This document shows, piece after piece, positions 11,605 through 27,022 of a stretch of DNA of 64,000 nucleotides (position 1 is the stretch's first letter; every line of letters starts with the position of its first letter). The stretch is from Acidimicrobiaceae bacterium. GTDB taxonomy: Bacteria; Actinomycetota; Acidimicrobiia; Acidimicrobiales; Palsa-688. Where the stretch lies: the NCBI GenBank assembly GCA_003166025.1, contig PMWT01000058.1, positions 1 to 64,000 on the forward strand, read 5' to 3'. Under the pieces are notes generated by a model. It was given only the letters and a program-made list of their open reading frames with translations, was not told the DNA's origin and made no database searches. The position numbers were made by a program, and so were the translations under genes.

Positions 11605-12951
11605 ATGGCATTGCGTTCTGACGAGCGGCCGGCCCGCCCCGAAGTGGCGTCGGTCGAGACGAAAGATCGGTTGGGCGCGGGCGCCGACAAGACGGTTGCG
11701 CGGGCGATGTCCCCACTGCTCGCACACTTGTTTGGTGGGAGCCTCCCCGTGCGTCTCGCGTTCTGGGACGGCAGCGCAGCCGGCCCTCTGGGCGGCCCCG
11801 GCACTCTCGTCCTGCGGGCACCGCGCGCATTGGCTCGGCTGGTCTGGTCACCCGACGAGCTCGGTATGGCCCGGGCGTTCGTTACCGGCGACATCGACTT
11901 CGACGGCAACCTCTTCGAGATGCTGTTGGCTCTCGAGGCAAAGACGAAAGGAAGGCGCCGCCTCGGCCCGCGTGCGGTGGCGAGCGGCCTGTGGACGGCG
12001 CTGCGCCTGGGCGTCATCGGTCTTCCGCCGTCTCGGCCCGAGGAGGAGGTCCGCCTCGGAGGTTGGCTGCACTCCAAACAGCGAGATGCTGTCGCCATAC
12101 GCCACCACTACGATGTCGGTAACGACTTCTACCGCCTCGTGCTCGGGCCGTCGATGACGTATTCCTGTGCTCGCTTCGACCGAGAGGGCATGTCGCTTGA
12201 AGAGGCGCAGCGCTCCAAGCACGACCTCATCTGCCGGAAGCTCGGCCTTGCCGAACGGCCGGGAGCACGCTTGCTCGACGTCGGTTGCGGGTGGGGCTCG
12301 ATGGCCATGCACGCTGCCAAGAACTACGCGGCCCGCGTCGTGGGGGTCACGCTCAGCGCTTCCCAGGTCGAGCTCGCTCGGGAACGGGTCCGGGACGCAG
12401 GCCTTGAGGCGAACGTTGAGATCCGCCTCCAAGACTACCGGGACCTGCGCGGCGAGAGCTTTGACGCGATCTCCTCGATAGGGATGTTCGAGCACGTAGG
12501 GACCAAGCGGATGGATGAGTACTTCAACATCTTGTTCTCCCTTCTCGCCCCGACTGGCCGCCTTTTGAACCATGCCATTTCGACGCCGGGAGGCTCAAGG
12601 ATGCATGGCCGGAGCTTCATAAACCGCTACGTGTTCCCCGATGGGGAGCTGGTCGACTTGGCCAACGTCGCGGGGGCTATGGAGCGGGCGGGCTTTGAGG
12701 TCCGCGATGTCGAGTCACTGCGCGAGCACTACTCGGAAACCCTGCACGCCTGGGTTGCGAACCTGGAGAGCTCCTGGGACCAAGCTGTTGCCCTCGTTGG
12801 AGAACCTAGAGCACGAGTTTGGCGCCTCTACATGGGCGGGTCGGCTAACGGCTTCGACGACGGCGGAATTGCGGTGCACCAGGTCCTCGGGGCCCTCCCC
12901 GCTCAAGGCGGTGCCAGCGGGATGCCACGGGCCCGGACTGGGTGGGGCTGA
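11605..12951 (+). CDS. Cyclopropane-fatty-acyl-phospholipid synthase family methyltransferase
   Basis: 448 residues, slightly longer than typical (about 380-430). A variable N-terminal domain of about 150 residues precedes the catalytic part: RHHYDVGNDFYRLVLG, then SAM-binding LLDVGCGWGSMAMHAA near 220-235, GMFEHVG, and a C-terminal REHYSETLHAW block. Transfers a methylene or methyl group from SAM to unsaturated acyl chains of membrane lipids. Relatives in actinobacteria also make 10-methyl fatty acids, so the product is uncertain. ATG with GAGGGAGG upstream. It stands alone, convergent with the PhyH gene. Confidence 0.92.
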   Translation: MALRSDERPARPEVASVETKDRLGAGADKTVARAMSPLLAHLFGGSLPVRLAFWDGSAAGPLGGPGTLVLRAPRALARLVWSPDELGMARAFVTGDIDFDGNLFEMLLALEAKTKGRRRLGPRAVASGLWTALRLGVIGLPPSRPEEEVRLGGWLHSKQRDAVAIRHHYDVGNDFYRLVLGPSMTYSCARFDREGMSLEEAQRSKHDLICRKLGLAERPGARLLDVGCGWGSMAMHAAKNYAARVVGVTLSASQVELARERVRDAGLEANVEIRLQDYRDLRGESFDAISSIGMFEHVGTKRMDEYFNILFSLLAPTGRLLNHAISTPGGSRMHGRSFINRYVFPDGELVDLANVAGAMERAGFEVRDVESLREHYSETLHAWVANLESSWDQAVALVGEPRARVWRLYMGGSANGFDDGGIAVHQVLGALPAQGGASGMPRARTGWG

Positions 12952-12986
12952 GAAATGGAAGACTACCCGCGAGGCCGCTCGTTGCT

Positions 12987-13769
12987 TCAAACGTCTGCTC
13001 CCGCGAAGCGAAAGTGACGAGCCGGATCGAATTGTGGCCAAGGCTGGTACTGGTTGACACCAGGCCTTCCGCGAAAATGGAACGCGCTGTTCCAGGGTTG
13101 TTCATCACTAACGATCTTCGTACTCGTGGGGATGTACCGAATAGTCAACCCGCAGCGGCGGTGCTCTGAGCGGTTAGCGTCGCTACTATGCATTATGTTG
13201 GGGTGGTGCACCTCGACGTCACCCGCTGCCAAAACGAGACTAACGGCCTTGCTCTCATCGACGTCCCTGTCTGCTTCAGAGCCCAAGACCGATTCCGTCG
13301 TAGTGTTCTCACGCAGGGACGAGAGCTCGTCGCGATGGCTGCCAGGTATCACCTTCATACAGCCATTGTTTTCATTTGAGTCGTCAACCGCGAGCCATAA
13401 ACTGACAACAGCCATCGGCTCCAATGGCCAATACGAGCCGTCTTGATGCCACAGTACCGGTTTTCCCGACCTCGGAGGCTTCGAAATATAATGGGAGGCG
13501 AATAAAGCTATATCGGGCCCTATAAACAGTTCTGCAATGTTCAACAAGCGAGGGTCGGACACGAGCCTCAACCAAAAAGGGTCGTCTCGAACAAACTCTG
13601 TCCCCAGACGTTCCGGTGGAACGTCCGGGTGCTGTTCCTGTAGCCACTCAACATGCCCATTCGTTTCACCCAGCAGATCGTCGTCTATGACACGGCGGAA
13701 TATCGTGTACCCAACGTCTTCGTACTCTCCAATGGCCCGGTCTGCGACTTCGGTGAGTTCAGGTGACAT
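12987..13769 (-). CDS. Phytanoyl-CoA dioxygenase (PhyH) family protein
   Basis: 260 residues from the ATG at 13769 (a GTGAGG site lies just upstream; a longer start 39 bases earlier is possible). Fe(II)/2-oxoglutarate enzyme: the HxD motif is WHQDGSYWPLE and the distal histidine is in the VEVHHPNIMHSS region. The 2-oxoglutarate arginine is in the CGLTIRYIP segment. The family hydroxylates lipids and many secondary metabolites. The gene follows the TetR gene on the same strand with a 194-base gap. Substrate unknown. Confidence 0.87.
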   Translation of the reverse strand: MSPELTEVADRAIGEYEDVGYTIFRRVIDDDLLGETNGHVEWLQEQHPDVPPERLGTEFVRDDPFWLRLVSDPRLLNIAELFIGPDIALFASHYISKPPRSGKPVLWHQDGSYWPLEPMAVVSLWLAVDDSNENNGCMKVIPGSHRDELSSLRENTTTESVLGSEADRDVDESKAVSLVLAAGDVEVHHPNIMHSSDANRSEHRRCGLTIRYIPTSTKIVSDEQPWNSAFHFRGRPGVNQYQPWPQFDPARHFRFAGADV

Positions 13770-17667: not shown

Positions 17668-19068
17668 GTGCCCGACTTCAAACGGCTCTACCGTCCCCGG
17701 ACTACCTCGCACCGACCGCTGAGCACCGTGGGTGCCGGAAGCATCATCGCAGCGCTAGCCGCTGTCGCTTGGTACAGCCCGTCCGTGGGCACTATGGCCG
17801 CTTCCGCCTCCGCCGACCCGCCCGCAGGCTCCACCACCGCCGATTGCTACTCGGCGACCACCTGCTATACCCCTCACCAGCTCGAAGTGGCGTACGGCAT
17901 CCTGCCCTTGCTCGACCACGGCACGAACGGCGCCGGGGAATCTGTGGTGCTGCCGGAGCTGGCCGAGCCCCAGTTCCCGCTCCCGGTTAGCGACATCCGC
18001 CAGGACATGGCCGCGTTCGACAAGCTGTTCCAGCTTCCAACGGCGCACATCCGGGTTGTGACCACCCTCGCCCCCTCTGCATCGCCGTGGTTGGCGAACG
18101 GCGAGGAGGTGCTGGACACCCAAGTGGTACACGCCATTGCCCCCGGCGCCGCCATCGTTGAGGTCCTCGTCAATGGGAACTCCCTCGAAAACGCCGCCAG
18201 CGCGGTGGCAGCGTCGGTAGCTGCGGTGCGCCTCGGCAGCTCACTTGGTGGCGTTATCTCGATCAGTGCCGCCGGCCAGACCGGCGGGGAGAACTGCGAC
18301 AACCACGCCGAGGTGGCCGCTCTCCATGCCGCATTTCAGTTCGCCGCAGCTCACCACGTAACGGTGGTCGCTGCATCTGGTGACATCGGTGCCGCTGGTG
18401 AGCCCTGCCAGGTATATAAGGGCCTGATCGGCGGAGCATTTCCTCCGGTCAAGGAAGTCAACCTGCCCGCTTCGGACCCGCTGGTACTGGGCGCCGGTGG
18501 CACCAGTCTGACGGCCAGCCACGCCACGGGCGCCTATATCAGCGAGAGCGCATGGGGCCTGCCCTACGGGAGCCCGGGAACGCAGTTCCAGGCGTCGGGC
18601 GGTGGGACCAGCCATGTTTTCTCCCGGCCCAGTTACCAAAACGGCGTCACTGGGACCGCCGGGTACCGAGGCGTGCCCGATGTGGCCGCTGACGCCTCCC
18701 CGCATGACGGTATGGCCCTGGTATTAGCAGCAGGCGGCGGCAAGTACGTTGTCCGCAACAGTGGCGGGACGAGCACGTCGGCTCCCATTTGGGCCGGGAC
18801 AATTGCCTTGGCCGACCAGTATTCCGGTCGCCACCTAGGTTTTGTGAACGCCGGTATTTACCGCATCGGCCGGAGCTCCCAATATAAGCGGGCCTTTCAC
18901 GACGTCACCACGGGGGACAATTCCGTTAGCTTCCCGCCGAAGACGCTGATCGGCAACCAGGCCCACCCCGGCTGGGACGCAGTGACTGGATGGGGTAGCC
19001 CGGATGCGGCCGTACTGGTCCCGCTCCTGGAGCACGACGTTCACTCCGACGACGCTGTCGGGCTGTAG
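17668..19068 (+). CDS. Secreted S53 (sedolisin) family serine-carboxyl peptidase
   Basis: 466 residues. A long basic N-terminus with a hydrophobic segment (about 20-45) ends in ASASA, a likely signal peptide. Catalytic residues fit the sedolisin set: Glu146 and Asp150 in NGEEVLDTQVV, oxyanion Asp239 in ASGDIGAAG, and Ser369 in SGGTSTSAPIWAG. The C-terminal calcium region is seen in FHDVTTGDN and PGWDAVTGWGSP. The large N-terminal prodomain of classical kumamolisin-type enzymes is missing. Family members are acid-active endopeptidases. GTG start. Confidence 0.88.
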   Translation: MPDFKRLYRPRTTSHRPLSTVGAGSIIAALAAVAWYSPSVGTMAASASADPPAGSTTADCYSATTCYTPHQLEVAYGILPLLDHGTNGAGESVVLPELAEPQFPLPVSDIRQDMAAFDKLFQLPTAHIRVVTTLAPSASPWLANGEEVLDTQVVHAIAPGAAIVEVLVNGNSLENAASAVAASVAAVRLGSSLGGVISISAAGQTGGENCDNHAEVAALHAAFQFAAAHHVTVVAASGDIGAAGEPCQVYKGLIGGAFPPVKEVNLPASDPLVLGAGGTSLTASHATGAYISESAWGLPYGSPGTQFQASGGGTSHVFSRPSYQNGVTGTAGYRGVPDVAADASPHDGMALVLAAGGGKYVVRNSGGTSTSAPIWAGTIALADQYSGRHLGFVNAGIYRIGRSSQYKRAFHDVTTGDNSVSFPPKTLIGNQAHPGWDAVTGWGSPDAAVLVPLLEHDVHSDDAVGL

Positions 19069-20634: not shown

Positions 20635-21342
20635 TCACCATGGCTTGACCTTGCCGAGGCGGCTGACGCCGAAGAGTATGCCAAATGCTACGGCGAGTTG
20701 GACCAGCGCCAGCACCATCGCTTGTTCGTGCGAACCGAAGAAGACGGCGTTGTAAAGCGCGATCGGCATAGTCGTTGCTATTGGCACCGATCCCGCGACG
20801 ATCATGGTCGCTCCGAAGTCCCCCAAGGCCCGGCCGAATGCCATCACGACACCGGCGACGACGCCACGCCGCGCCAGCGGCAATGTGACGAGCAGCGCGA
20901 TCCGCCATTGAGGCAGCCCCATAGCCCGAGCGGCCTGCTCGAAGCGCGGGTCGACACCGGAGATCGCGGCTCGTGAAAAGCGCAGGCAGTAGGGGAACGA
21001 CTCGACGATCTGTGCCACGACGATCCCGGTGAACGTGAAGGTGAGCGGGTGGCCGAAGAGGCGCACCTCAGCGCTGCGGATGGGCCCGGGACCTCCCAAT
21101 TGTGTGAGGAGGTACCACCCGACGACGGTGGGCGGGAGCGCCATGGGCAGGCTGAACACGGTCTCGATAGCGCCTCGCCCAGGAAAACAGCCTTTGGCGA
21201 GAAGGAACCCGAGCGCGCACCCGACGACCGCCACGACGAGCGTCGCCTCGAGGGCGGCATGCAGGGAGACCGATAGTGGGCCCCAGACCCAGGGCGGTAT
21301 ACCGAGCGCGTTCAGCCACGAGTGCGGGACCAGTCCGTTCAC
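20635..21342 (-). CDS. ModB-like ABC transporter permease (second copy)
   Basis: 235 residues from the GTG at 21342, which overlaps the ATPase stop (GTGA). Five to six membrane segments. The permease signature is GRALGDFGATMIVAGSVPIA, very like molybdate permease ModB, and GLPQWRIALLVTLPLARRGV is the EAA-type ATPase contact. A different ModB-like permease is encoded on the other side of the ATPase, so the channel is probably a heterodimer. Substrate predicted as molybdate, tungstate or a related oxyanion. Confidence 0.86.
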   Translation of the reverse strand: MNGLVPHSWLNALGIPPWVWGPLSVSLHAALEATLVVAVVGCALGFLLAKGCFPGRGAIETVFSLPMALPPTVVGWYLLTQLGGPGPIRSAEVRLFGHPLTFTFTGIVVAQIVESFPYCLRFSRAAISGVDPRFEQAARAMGLPQWRIALLVTLPLARRGVVAGVVMAFGRALGDFGATMIVAGSVPIATTMPIALYNAVFFGSHEQAMVLALVQLAVAFGILFGVSRLGKVKPW

Positions 21343-22058
21343 GCTCGTCCGGTGCTCTCCGGTGCCCCCGACGCAGGTCCCGGGCATACGGGACGGTCGA
21401 CGACGCGGGCCCCGGTCACCCGCCCGTGGTTGTAGCCGATAATGACGTCACCGAGCTCCTCGGCTTCCTCGGCATCGTGGGTCACCAGCACCGCCGGGAC
21501 GCTCGACGAAATGATCACCCCTCGGATAAGTTCCCTCAGCTCACGGCGCACCTCGGCGTCGAGGGCCGAGAGCGGCTCGTCGAGCAAGATCAGTGCCGGG
21601 TCGCCGGCGAGCCCGCGGGCCAGGGCCACTCGTTGGCGTTGGCCACCCGACAGAGATCCCGGTCGGCGGTCGGCCAATCCTTCCGCTCCGACCCGTTCGA
21701 GCCAAGAGCGAGCGACGGCGCGTCGTGCCCGGCGCCCCCTGGTCTGACGGACGGCGAGGGCCACGTTGTCGATAACCGAGCGGTGGGGCAGCAGTAGACC
21801 GTCCTGGAAGACCATGCCGACGCGACGCTTTTGGGTGCTGACGTAGGTACGGCGGGAACAGTCCGTTACGACGTGACCGTTGATGGTGATGGTGCCGCTA
21901 TCGGGACGGATGAGGCCTGCGATCAGCGCCAGGGTCAACGACTTCCCGGCTCCTGATGGGCCGAACAGTACCGACATCCCTGACTCCACGGTGAACGCAA
22001 CGTCGAGGTTGAACTCGCCGATCTGACGAGCGACCGCAAGCTCAAGCGCGGCCGTCAT
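21339..22058 (-). CDS. ModC-like ABC transporter ATPase
   Basis: 239 residues from the ATG at 22058, which overlaps the upstream permease stop (ATGA); a longer open frame upstream is out-of-frame permease. Walker A is GPSGAGKS, signature LSGGQRQRVALARGLAG, Walker B LILLDEPLSALD, switch His in VLVTHDAEEAEELGD. It ends soon after the ATPase core, so it lacks the C-terminal Mop/TOBE molybdate-sensing domain that makes typical ModC about 350 residues long. It energises the import complex. Confidence 0.9.
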   Translation of the reverse strand: MTAALELAVARQIGEFNLDVAFTVESGMSVLFGPSGAGKSLTLALIAGLIRPDSGTITINGHVVTDCSRRTYVSTQKRRVGMVFQDGLLLPHRSVIDNVALAVRQTRGRRARRAVARSWLERVGAEGLADRRPGSLSGGQRQRVALARGLAGDPALILLDEPLSALDAEVRRELRELIRGVIISSSVPAVLVTHDAEEAEELGDVIIGYNHGRVTGARVVDRPVCPGPASGAPESTGRA

Positions 22059-22840
22059 GACCGGCTCCGACCGAGCAGGCCGACGCCGGTCATAGCGATG
22101 ATGGCCATCAAGACGAGGATCAGCAACATCGTGTCCCGCTCGGGGGTGGTGAAGGAGTCGAGGATGGCGAGCGACATCGTGCGAGTCCTGCCGTTGATGT
22201 CCCCACCGATCATGAGCGTGGCCCCGTACTCGCCGAGGGCACGTGCGCACCCGATCGTGAGCCCGGCGGCGGTCCCGCGTCGAGCAAGCGGAAGTGTGAC
22301 CTGTAAGGCGACTCGCCAGTTGGGCAGGCCCATCGTCCGCGCCGCCTGCTCGAGCGCTGGGTCGACCCCTGCTATGGCCGAGCGCGCGGCCCGCAAGCAA
22401 AACGGGTACGCGGCCACCGCCGCGGCAATTATGCACCCCCAGACGTTGTAGACGAACACGTGGCCGGTCACACGGGTCAAGAACCCTCCGACCTGGGTGC
22501 CCGGGGAGAGCACTTCGAGCAGGTAGTAGCCAATGACCGTAGGCGGGAGGATGATGGGAAGGCTCCCGACCGTTTCGAGCACGTCCCGTCCCGGGAAGTG
22601 GCCCTTCGCAAGCATGTACCCTGAGGCGACGCCCGTGACCCCGGCGATCACAATTGCCGCGGATGCGACGCGCAGCGAAAGGAAAAAAGGCCCAGAAACG
22701 ATGTCCCAGTAGGCGATGTAACGGGCCAGGAGATGAGCGGCACCGAACCCGAGCCCAAAGCCCACCAGCACGACGACTGAGATGACGACGGCCCTTTTCC
22801 TCTTGTCGAGGGCCGGCGCGGCTTTGGGCTCCCGCTCCAC
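22055..22840 (-). CDS. ModB-like ABC transporter permease (first copy)
   Basis: 261 residues, about six membrane segments. Signature CARALGEYGATLMIGGDINGR, and LPIILPPTVIGYYLLE is shared with ModB proteins. The ATPase-contact helix is GLPNWRVALQVTLPLARRG. It resembles the permease at 20635-21342 in the same motifs but has an additional N-terminal charged segment. GTG start, 20 bases after the end of the ModA-like gene. Confidence 0.87.
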   Translation of the reverse strand: MEREPKAAPALDKRKRAVVISVVVLVGFGLGFGAAHLLARYIAYWDIVSGPFFLSLRVASAAIVIAGVTGVASGYMLAKGHFPGRDVLETVGSLPIILPPTVIGYYLLEVLSPGTQVGGFLTRVTGHVFVYNVWGCIIAAAVAAYPFCLRAARSAIAGVDPALEQAARTMGLPNWRVALQVTLPLARRGTAAGLTIGCARALGEYGATLMIGGDINGRTRTMSLAILDSFTTPERDTMLLILVLMAIIAMTGVGLLGRSRS

Positions 22841-22860: not shown

Positions 22861-24372
22861 CTAACTGATGGGGTCATATCCGAAGGCGGCTAGTACCGCC
22901 TGCCCCTTGGAGGAAAGCAAGTACTGGATGAACGCAAGGGCGGCTTTACCGTCGGGGCTGGTGAGGTCCGTTGCTGCGCTCTGAGCTTGGTCGTCGTTCT
23001 CGACGACCACCCATTGCCTGATCGGTTGGTAGTACCCGTGCTCGCCTACAAGGGTCTTTGGGCTATCGGCGCCGTCCTTCCCGAAGGTCCCGGAGCTGAT
23101 GTCGGCCGCCACATTGTCGTGCATACCGGCAACGTAGTTTCTATCCGTGCAAGGCTCAGCGCTGGCGATGTTGGTCTTCCAGCCGTTCGACACGGTGGCG
23201 TCGGAGACGTCCGCCACGCCGCACGCGGGCACCTCTGCCCAAAAGTCGGTGTCGTTACCTGCGGGAGAGACCTCGAACGACTTCGGCAGGAGCGCGATCT
23301 GCGAGGTGCCGGCGACGACGCTGTCCTGGGTGTAGGTCACGTTATCGCCGAAAATGACCGGCAGCGAGGGATCGGAATAGTTCCCGTTCCCGTTCTGGCC
23401 TCCCGACGAGGGGCTCGTGGTGTTGTAGTTGTCCAAGCTGGAGCCCTTGCCTGTTATGCGGTCGATCTCCGCGCAGGCCTGGTCCGAGGCCTTCGCACCC
23501 AGGGCCTTGTCGGCGTTGGCGTGGTAGTACTGGGTGGCCGCTACGTAGAGAGCCTCCATGCCAGCGAGCCCGTAGGGCGCGTTCGGCGCCACCGGCGACG
23601 GCCCGCAGCCAGTGTCTGCGAAGGTCCAGCCGTTCTTCGGGTCGGCAATGGCAAGGTACCCACCGGTGTTATGAGCGGCTGTGCCCCCGTAGGACTTTTT
23701 TGTATGGGCGAGCAGGTCGCTCCAAACCTGGGCCATGGTGTACGGCGCCTCTTTTGTGCCAGTCTTGGTGAAATAGCCGCCAACAGGCTTCGCACAGGCG
23801 GGAGCGCCTTGTGCCGGCGCCAACGTCTTCCCACCGCTCCTGCAGGAGACGATCACCAGGCGCCCGGTGGTGTACTGGGCGCGGGTGGCCCCGATACCAG
23901 GACAAGCCATGCCGTTGTTGTTACCACCATTTGGGGCGGAGTACGCGGTCGAATGCGAATCGATGCACTTGCCCACGGTGTTCTTCGGCACCGCCCCCGG
24001 GTTCGATGCCGCGGGAGAGCCGTAAGGGACCGTGTTGTCGACGTTGGCCTCGTCAGCCGATGCGAACAATGCGTCGCCGGCCGGCGAGTTGCCGGTGCCG
24101 TCCGATGCGTAATCCGCGCCGCCGTCGATCACTCCGGCGAGGTGGCCCGACCCCCCGAAACTGAATGTGACGCTGTTGCCGCCGTTGGCGGTCTGAACGA
24201 AGTTCTGGGTCATGAAGTCGAACGCCGGTTCGGTGTTCGACGCGGCCAGGAACGTTGTGCCGGTTGACTGGGCCGACGCCGGACCGGCACCAACCCCTAC
24301 TGCACCAGGCAGGACGGCTACAACCAGCCACGATGCACATACGAGCCTGGGCAATGAGAGCTTCTTGGACAA
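22861..24372 (-). CDS. ModA-like oxyanion-binding protein with large Cys-containing insertions
   Basis: 503 residues from the TTG at 24372, chosen because AAAGGGGG lies just upstream. Signal peptide ends PASA-Q near residue 34. ModA-type blocks appear in order: FLAASNTEPAFDFM, VTFSFGGSGHLAGVI, FASADEANVDN, YLAIADPKNG, LPVIFGDNVTYTQDSV and the C-terminal AFIQYLLSSKGQAVLAAFGY. ModA is normally about 230-260 residues. The extra sequence sits between these blocks and holds eight cysteines (in GKCIDS, MACPG, VSCRS, PACAKP, DTGCGPS, DQACAE, PACGVAD, AEPCTDR), enough for four disulfides. Ligand predicted molybdate-like, but the insertions could change it. Confidence 0.8.
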   Translation of the reverse strand: MSKKLSLPRLVCASWLVVAVLPGAVGVGAGPASAQSTGTTFLAASNTEPAFDFMTQNFVQTANGGNSVTFSFGGSGHLAGVIDGGADYASDGTGNSPAGDALFASADEANVDNTVPYGSPAASNPGAVPKNTVGKCIDSHSTAYSAPNGGNNNGMACPGIGATRAQYTTGRLVIVSCRSGGKTLAPAQGAPACAKPVGGYFTKTGTKEAPYTMAQVWSDLLAHTKKSYGGTAAHNTGGYLAIADPKNGWTFADTGCGPSPVAPNAPYGLAGMEALYVAATQYYHANADKALGAKASDQACAEIDRITGKGSSLDNYNTTSPSSGGQNGNGNYSDPSLPVIFGDNVTYTQDSVVAGTSQIALLPKSFEVSPAGNDTDFWAEVPACGVADVSDATVSNGWKTNIASAEPCTDRNYVAGMHDNVAADISSGTFGKDGADSPKTLVGEHGYYQPIRQWVVVENDDQAQSAATDLTSPDGKAALAFIQYLLSSKGQAVLAAFGYDPIS

Positions 24373-24642: not shown

Positions 24643-24963
24643 TCAGCCCGCCGGCGATTGGTAAGCAGGGGAGCCAATAACGATTGTACCGCAGCCCGTC
24701 CCGGGTATGTACACAACGGAATTGTAGACGGGCTTGTGCGCGAGAAGCCCTTCATCCTCAAGCGTTGAAAGCGACGCGTACTTGCCGTACTTGGAACAGC
24801 TCGCCTTCTCCGCCCGCATAATTATCGCGCTCTCGGATGCGATGGCGCCGGTCGTCCCTTTGTTTGTGGTGGCCCCCGCCAGCACGTAGACCGCGAAACC
24901 CGTGATGAAAGAAAGTACGAGCAAAAAGCCAAGAAGGTGGCCAAATGAGAGTTTGTGGGACAT
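24643..24963 (-). CDS. Small single-pass membrane protein, pilin-like
   Basis: 106 residues from the ATG at 24963, which has GAGAGG upstream; the much longer open frame to 25770 is a shadow of the regulator gene. One membrane segment (about 9-30, GHLLGFLLVLSFITGFAVYV) is followed by an outside domain of about 75 residues. Two cysteines there (KASCSKYG and GTGCGTIV) could form a disulfide. The pattern SAIIMRAEKASCSKYGKYAS followed by LSTLEDEGLL resembles type IV pilin or pseudopilin subunits, but there is no prepilin peptidase site. It is divergent from the regulator and precedes the ModA-like operon. Function unknown. Confidence 0.75.
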   Translation of the reverse strand: MSHKLSFGHLLGFLLVLSFITGFAVYVLAGATTNKGTTGAIASESAIIMRAEKASCSKYGKYASLSTLEDEGLLAHKPVYNSVVYIPGTGCGTIVIGSPAYQSPAG

Positions 24964-25137: not shown

Positions 25138-26238
25138 ATGGACGTCCGGGTCAGCTCGACTAGCCGGATAGACGACCGCTTCCGCCTTGCCCGGCTCGGT
25201 CGGGGTCTGTCCCAGGCCGCCCTCGCCGAGCGAGCGGGTGTCACCCGCCAGACGATCTCCGGGATCGAAGCCGGGCGTTGGTTGCCATCGCTCGACGTCG
25301 CTCTCGTCGTGGCGGCCGCCCTGGGCTCGAGTGTCGAGGAACTGTTCGGCAAGGCTCCCAACTTCGCCCCGGCAGAAGCACGGCTCGCCTTTGGCGCGCA
25401 GAAGAGCGCCCGGCTTCTGCTCGCGGACATCGACGGCGAGCAGGTGGCGTTCCCCCTCGAGGGCGACCATGTCTTGGTCCCCGGGTTCCGCCCTGCCCTG
25501 GCCGAGGCGGACACCACTGAGGGCTCGGCGGCGGGCTCGTCCGTGGCGGCCCGACGTTTCGTGGCACCCGCGCCCGTTCTTGTGATCGCCGGGTGTGACC
25601 CGGCTTTGGCCCTGTTGACCGGGCCCTTGCAGCGGCACCGCCCGCCGGTCAGCCTGGTGTGGTGGAACTGCTCCAACTCCACTGGCGTTGAGCTCGTCGA
25701 CGCTGGTCTCAGTCACGTGTCGGCGGTCCATCGCCGTAGCGACCAAAAGCGCGGACGTTCGGCCGCGCACGAGGTCGTCGGCTTCGCCGCGTGGCGGGAG
25801 GGACTGGTCGTGTCGCCCCGTTATGCCGCCCGGGTGCAGGGGCTGGCGGACGCCCTGGAGCTCGGCCTACGGGTAGCCAACCGCGAACCAGGCTCCGAGG
25901 CTCGGCGGCTGCTCGATGATGCTCTTGTCCAACTCGGTGTGGAGGGCAAGACCGTGGCCGGCTACGACAGCTCCTGCACCGCGCACCTATTGGTGACCTC
26001 GGCTATCGCGGCCGGCCTGGCCGATGTCGGTGTGGCCAGCGAGCCGGCGGCGCTCGCTTACGGCCTGGGCTTTGTCCCCTGGCAGGAGGAGACTTGCGAG
26101 TTGTGGATCCCGGGCTCCCAGCTTGGCACCCCTGAGGTCCGCGCCCTGCTAAACGTCATGGCCGGAAGCGAGCTGCGCGCTCAGCTGGGGGCCATCGCTG
26201 GTTACGACGCCACCCCGTGTGGGACGGTGGTCGGATGA
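25138..26238 (+). CDS. XRE-family regulator with PBP-like ligand domain
   Basis: 366 residues from the ATG at 25138; upstream in-frame sequence is not protein-like. The N-terminal XRE helix-turn-helix (about 10-65) includes RGLSQAALAERAGVTRQTIS and EAGRWLPSLDVALVVAAALG. Residues about 130-355 resemble the PBP-like domain (PF12727 type) found fused to ModE, MoeA and excisionase-type HTH proteins: LVIAGCDPALALL, HEVVGFAAWREGLVV, and the C-terminal LWIPGSQLGTPEVRALL. Such proteins are thought to sense molybdate or molybdopterin-related ligands. Its place between the transporter and a molybdoenzyme supports control of both. Confidence 0.85.
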   Translation: MDVRVSSTSRIDDRFRLARLGRGLSQAALAERAGVTRQTISGIEAGRWLPSLDVALVVAAALGSSVEELFGKAPNFAPAEARLAFGAQKSARLLLADIDGEQVAFPLEGDHVLVPGFRPALAEADTTEGSAAGSSVAARRFVAPAPVLVIAGCDPALALLTGPLQRHRPPVSLVWWNCSNSTGVELVDAGLSHVSAVHRRSDQKRGRSAAHEVVGFAAWREGLVVSPRYAARVQGLADALELGLRVANREPGSEARRLLDDALVQLGVEGKTVAGYDSSCTAHLLVTSAIAAGLADVGVASEPAALAYGLGFVPWQEETCELWIPGSQLGTPEVRALLNVMAGSELRAQLGAIAGYDATPCGTVVG

Positions 26239-26386: not shown

Positions 26387-27022
26387 GTGGGGTTCACAAG
26401 GGGGTTCCACAATCGGCGCCAAGAGCCCCGTGATCCCCGTCTGCCTCCGGGCCAGTACGACACCGGCTCGTTATGGCCAGTGCTAACGGCCGAGGTGACG
26501 CCGAAGATCTCCACCGCGTCATGGGCATTTTCTGTTGAGGGCTTAGTCGAACGTCCGACCATTTGGACCTGGGACGAGATCCAAGCCTTGCCCCCATCGA
26601 GCTACGAGGGCGACATCCACTGCGTCACAACGTGGTCCAAGCTCGGTGTGACCTTCAAGGGTGTCTCGGTCGACACCCTGCTGGCCACGGCAGTACCCTT
26701 ACCCGTAGCAACTCACGCCCTGGCTTTTTGTTATACCGCCCAGTCCAGCACGGTCCCCCCCATTGCCTACACCACTAACTTCCAGCTGGACGACCTCAGC
26801 GGAGGCAAGGCTTGGGTGGCCTGGGAGTACGGAGGCCAGCCCCTTCCCATCGATCACGGGGGACCGGCCCGGCTCCTGGTCCCGCACCTGTACTTCTGGA
26901 AAAGCGCAAAGTGGGTGGCGGGGCTTCGCCTCCTGGACCACGACCAACCCGGCTTCTGGGAACGCAACGGTTACCACAACCGCGGCGACCCCTGGGTCGA
27001 ACAGCGTTACGACGGCGATTGA
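26387..27022 (+). CDS. Sulfite-oxidase-like molybdopterin oxidoreductase
   Basis: 211 residues, one-domain protein of the Oxidored_molyb (YedY/sulfite oxidase) fold. Cys79 in GDIHCVTTWSKLGV is the expected molybdenum ligand. Further family marks are PIAYTTNFQLDDL, GGPARLLVPHLYFWKSAKW and the C-terminal PGFWERNGYHNRGDPW. There is no signal peptide or Tat motif, so it is probably cytoplasmic. GTG start with GAGAGGA upstream. Needs molybdopterin, which fits the transporter next door. Substrate unknown. Confidence 0.92.
   Translation: MGFTRGFHNRRQEPRDPRLPPGQYDTGSLWPVLTAEVTPKISTASWAFSVEGLVERPTIWTWDEIQALPPSSYEGDIHCVTTWSKLGVTFKGVSVDTLLATAVPLPVATHALAFCYTAQSSTVPPIAYTTNFQLDDLSGGKAWVAWEYGGQPLPIDHGGPARLLVPHLYFWKSAKWVAGLRLLDHDQPGFWERNGYHNRGDPWVEQRYDGD

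Follow-up and report, generated by a model that had tools for sequence, protein, structure and literature searches.

Among solute-binding proteins, those related to ModA have been studied well and are compact. In the ModABC importer, a single permease, ModB, is thought to homodimerise, and the ATPase, ModC, carries a C-terminal TOBE domain. In ModA of P. aeruginosa, the oxyanion is held by Asn33, Thr60, Tyr141 and Ile168, with further contacts from Ala31, Ala32, Ala59, Ala79, Ala139, Pro140 and Asn167 (PMC9171197), and in Acinetobacter baumannii ModA a disulfide between C141 and C189 was shown to tune affinity (PMC11734730). A lineage with a lipid-anchored ModA and a single ModB is widespread in the class Acidimicrobiia (PDB chain 9wgd and loci L074-L080 are of this type).

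Here we analyze a 64,000-nucleotide stretch of the genome of a soil actinobacterium, a member of the Acidimicrobiaceae (contig PMWT01000058.1, positions 1 to 64,000; hereafter the window), in which an otherwise known kind of ModABC system has a remodelled ModA of doubled size, an unusual change to a standard nutrient importer. The enlarged protein has the core blocks and pocket positions of the class Acidimicrobiia ModA and, like it, is encoded beside a ModB of the same lineage, a short ModC and an XRE+PBP_like regulator. The class ModA, in contrast, has ~230 residues, a cysteine-free mature part, a lipobox-like cysteine and a single ModB partner. The ModAs of P. aeruginosa (7t4z) and A. vinelandii (1atg) share the motifs AxN, GxSG/GxTG, APYG, N-V/I and PIxQ with the enlarged protein but have neither insertions nor cysteines, whereas that of A. 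baumannii is of normal size with one disulfide pair, as against eight cysteines tied to insertions here. Finally, where the standard importer has one ModB and a TOBE-bearing ModC, the window operon encodes two ModBs and a ModC without TOBE.

Results

Identity and ancestry of the enlarged protein

The gene occupies 22861..24372 on the minus strand and encodes 503 residues from a TTG start. That start, at 24372, falls at the same point as an ATG or TTG start in four orthologues (L042-L045), which backs its position; the open reading frame is real. Assignment as a ModA-type solute-binding protein is supported by the orthologues L042-L046, a block alignment to ModA, and Pfam SBP_bac_11 (PF13531), which scores 32.8 bits against a cut-off of 25 in two separated stretches, one per end, and is matched by all six family members. 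The NCBIfam equivalog TIGR01256 (modA) reached 23.2 bits over the N-terminal part only and missed its cut-off of 62.5, as the insertions break the match. A hidden Markov model of ten ModAs (seven class relatives plus PDB chains 9wgd, 7t4z and 1atg) gave the whole protein 56 bits; when both ends were removed, residues 80-428 still reached 18.6 bits. In each case none of 2000 shuffles scored as high, and an earlier test with a four-member profile agrees. With a profile of 20 broader ModAs the middle of the protein was not separated from shuffles (79/1000), which suggests that this region resembles APYG-type ModAs in particular. The relation to ModA is thus firm at the ends and significant in the middle. 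The conserved blocks stand in ModA order, as first proposed.

A PDB search with the protein or its profile gave a weak match to 9wgd; matches to Keap1 and lysozyme were dismissed as chance. AlphaFold2, run on the six-member alignment, returned an unusable model (pLDDT 28), attributable to too little sequence diversity. Scans and patterns used to deepen the alignment found no ModA in viral contigs, the one match there (L052) proving on reading to be something else, and plasmids gave no match.

A 34-residue signal peptide (24271..24372, minus strand), read from the sequence, ends in an AxA-type cleavage site, between ASA and Q, and lacks a lipobox; the mature protein has 469 residues, compared with about 230 in ModA. 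The ASA motif is kept in 6/6 members. None of the six has a lipobox, whereas by eye or pattern a lipobox-like cysteine is present in nearly all actinobacterial ModAs compared. Two other solute-binding proteins of the same genome (L002 and L003) likewise have AxA-type signal peptides without a lipobox, in which they differ from the majority of actinobacterial binding proteins compared; its absence is therefore not peculiar to the enlarged ModA, is weakened as a special trait, and may be a lineage habit. How the protein is retained without a lipobox is a real question.

Insertions, cysteines and pocket

The doubling in size had been ascribed to segments placed between conserved blocks, and the block alignment confirms this, with about 239 extra residues. 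The insertions measure, in order, 12, 39, 27, 16, 17, 51, 4, 62 and 11 residues; they interrupt the ModA block series at seven or eight sites, which lie on both lobes. By alignment to ModA (minus strand, mature numbering), insertion 1 (residues 52-63; 24082..24117) lies in the loop before block FASAD; insertion 2 (86-124; 23899..24015) holds C102 and C123; and insertion 3a (149-175; 23746..23826) holds C159, with C143 just before it at 23842-23844, and is followed by insertion 3b (183-198; 23677..23724). Insertion 4 (213-229; 23584..23634) holds C222 and ends directly before the ligand motif NAPYG, at the position of the gate residue Thr138 of P. aeruginosa ModA. Insertion 5 (247-297; 23380..23532) holds C266, insertion 6 (350-411; 23038..23223) holds C350 and C374, and insertion 7 spans residues 428-438 (22957..22989).

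The mature cysteines (102, 123, 143, 159, 222, 266, 350 and 374) are invariant in the six members. The initial annotation placed all eight in the extra segments; this stands for seven, while C143 occupies a ModA-aligned column and only borders an insertion. The eight cysteines likely brace the protein by disulfides; from their spacing, 102-123, 143-159 and 350-374 would form local pairs and 222-266 a further one. Between the window protein and L042, dN/dS is about 0.10 in the insertions and about 0.07 in the core, indicating that both are functional coding sequence under purifying selection. The earlier proposal of one extra lobe or lid finds no support, in that form, in insertions scattered over both lobes, which fit a disulfide-braced shell with one gate loop better than a single added domain; insertion 4 could act as a lid.

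In the alignment, P. aeruginosa N33, T60, Y141 and I168 correspond to N12, S41, Y233 and V311, the contacts A31, A32, A59, A79, A139, P140 and N167 to A10, S11, G40, A72, A231, P232 and N310, and Gln214 to Q419. Of these, A31, A79, A139, P140, N167 and Q214 are kept and A59 is replaced by G; in L044, Y233 is replaced by F. As every pocket position is either retained or conservatively substituted, molybdate/tungstate most likely remains the ligand, which argues against the change of ligand envisaged at the outset.

Operon and neighboring genes

Downstream on the minus strand, the binding protein is adjoined, here and in L042-L045, by ModB1 (22055..22840; 261 residues; TIGR02141 modB, 176 bits against a cut-off of 182.6), followed by ModC (21339..22058; 239 residues; ABC_tran, and positions 2-214 of 353 of TIGR02142 modC) and a second paralogue, ModB2 (20635..21342; start at GTG 21342 or an ATG further up; TIGR02141, 180 bits). 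Among NCBIfam models, modB ranks first for each permease and modC for the ATPase, with every score below its equivalog cut-off. A family search found no TOBE in ModC; short ModCs are also seen in class relatives, and a TOBE protein is encoded elsewhere in the genome. The order SBP-ModB1-ModC-ModB2, and with it both ModB paralogues, is kept in L042-L045. In a tree, ModB1 and ModB2 form two clades inside the class ModABC lineage, apart from the commoner actinobacterial ModB, and this operon contains the two best modB matches of the window genome. The arrangement of a TOBE-less ModC between two ModB paralogues (20635-22840) suggests a heterodimeric molybdate permease.

In 6/6 loci, the gene just upstream of that for the binding protein encodes a small protein with one transmembrane segment and two invariant cysteines (24643..24963, minus strand, 106 residues; L042 7448-7765, L043 7453-7770, L044 898-1215, L045 3632-3949, L046 2290-2607). 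Neither Pfam nor NCBIfam yielded a match that passed the cut-off, and AlphaFold2 (pLDDT 56) gave a clear N-terminal helix only. The C-terminal half looks pilin-like by eye.

A divergent XRE+PBP_like regulator (25138..26238, plus strand; the listed reading frame starts at 24955; HTH_3 and PBP_like) precedes a molybdopterin-binding oxidoreductase (26387..27022, plus strand; Oxidored_molyb, PF00174). The divergent regulator in L042, L043, L044 and L046 is of HTH+TOBE/Mop type. Homologues of the window regulator flank normal-sized modABC operons in the class (L074-L079, L014, L020, L027, L034, L035 and L048), and XRE+PBP_like proteins are likely a molybdate-responsive regulator type. No Moco riboswitch or other Rfam family was found upstream. 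The window genome encodes five MoCoBD_1 molybdoenzymes. A secreted protease encoded further away (17668-19068, plus strand) is presumably sedolisin-like, judging by the motif SGGTSTSAPIW.

Distribution

A search for homologues with the same insertions, as had been suggested, succeeded: a collection scan recovered five orthologues (L042-L046) in Acidimicrobiaceae metagenome-assembled genomes (MAGs), 72-80% identical to the window protein; over the mature part alone, identity among the six proteins is 75-84%. Within the window's family, 1/32 genomes has the full-length form. Of 172 genomes in the family of one of the five MAGs, no other has it, and it was not found in class, order and phylum samples. 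The relatives' MAGs bear the names palsa and bog, which suggests peat. In the class, the operons that encode the closest permeases each have a single ModB together with a short ModC and a ModA of normal type. The L042 operon is followed closely by a tRNA gene and a phage integrase gene (11997-13403), an arrangement that would fit transfer but is suggestive only.

Discussion

We consider it likely that the enlarged protein is the secreted molybdate/tungstate-binding component of an importer of ModABC type, and that it arose from an ordinary ModA belonging to the lineage common in the class Acidimicrobiia. The ModB and ModC neighbors, the molybdenum-linked regulators, the five molybdoenzymes and the kept pocket all speak for such an importer; the missed modA equivalog cut-off, the pLDDT of 28, the Y233 to F replacement in L044 and that of A59 by G count against it. 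Under this interpretation, a two-lobed clamp (Venus flytrap) would close on molybdate and hand it to a ModB1/ModB2 heterodimer driven by the TOBE-less ModC, control having presumably moved to the separate regulator. The insertions would probably form a disulfide-braced outer shell (likely pairs C102-C123, C143-C159, C222-C266 and C350-C374), with insertion 4 placed at the gate beside the ligand. Such a shell most likely lends stability to the secreted protein and influences how it docks on the asymmetric permease and, perhaps, on the small membrane protein encoded upstream. A bolder version, in which the insertions constitute a new module, locked by disulfides, through which the binding protein docks on ModB1/ModB2 together with the one-transmembrane protein, in a dedicated membrane-bound receptor complex unseen in known ModABC systems, seems to us unlikely.

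Other accounts of the extra segments deserve consideration. The cleft might have been reshaped by the insertions for another oxyanion or a larger molybdenum complex, such as humic- or catechol-bound molybdate; the 17-residue insertion 4, with C222 directly before NAPYG, the replacement of P. aeruginosa A59 by G40, and the peat suggested by the relatives' names would all be consistent with this. However, the protein retains the four hydrogen-bonding positions of ModA and most of its contact positions, and there is a link to molybdate both in the adjoining regulators and in the only modB-type permeases, leaving such a ligand quite improbable. It is also conceivable, albeit with a very small probability, that the protein leaves the cell to scavenge molybdate in soluble form instead of staying at the membrane, given its AxA-type signal peptide and the want of a lipobox in 6/6 members, when a lipobox-like cysteine is nearly universal among the actinobacterial ModAs compared; against this, the genome encodes two further binding proteins without a lipobox, and the conserved membrane protein upstream could retain the enlarged ModA. 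As for an error of assembly, a fusion or relaxed drift confined to one genome, which the occurrence in a single genome of the window's family might bring to mind, we give it practically no credence: five independent orthologues share these insertions and cysteines with the window protein, and purifying selection acts on the insertions, by which this explanation is refuted.

A secreted ModA of an otherwise recognizable importer is also an example of a family member missed by profile cut-offs. With its doubled ModA, kept pocket, duplicated ModB and added membrane protein, this lineage constitutes a natural test of surface additions, one that bears on capture, stability and docking in ABC importers.
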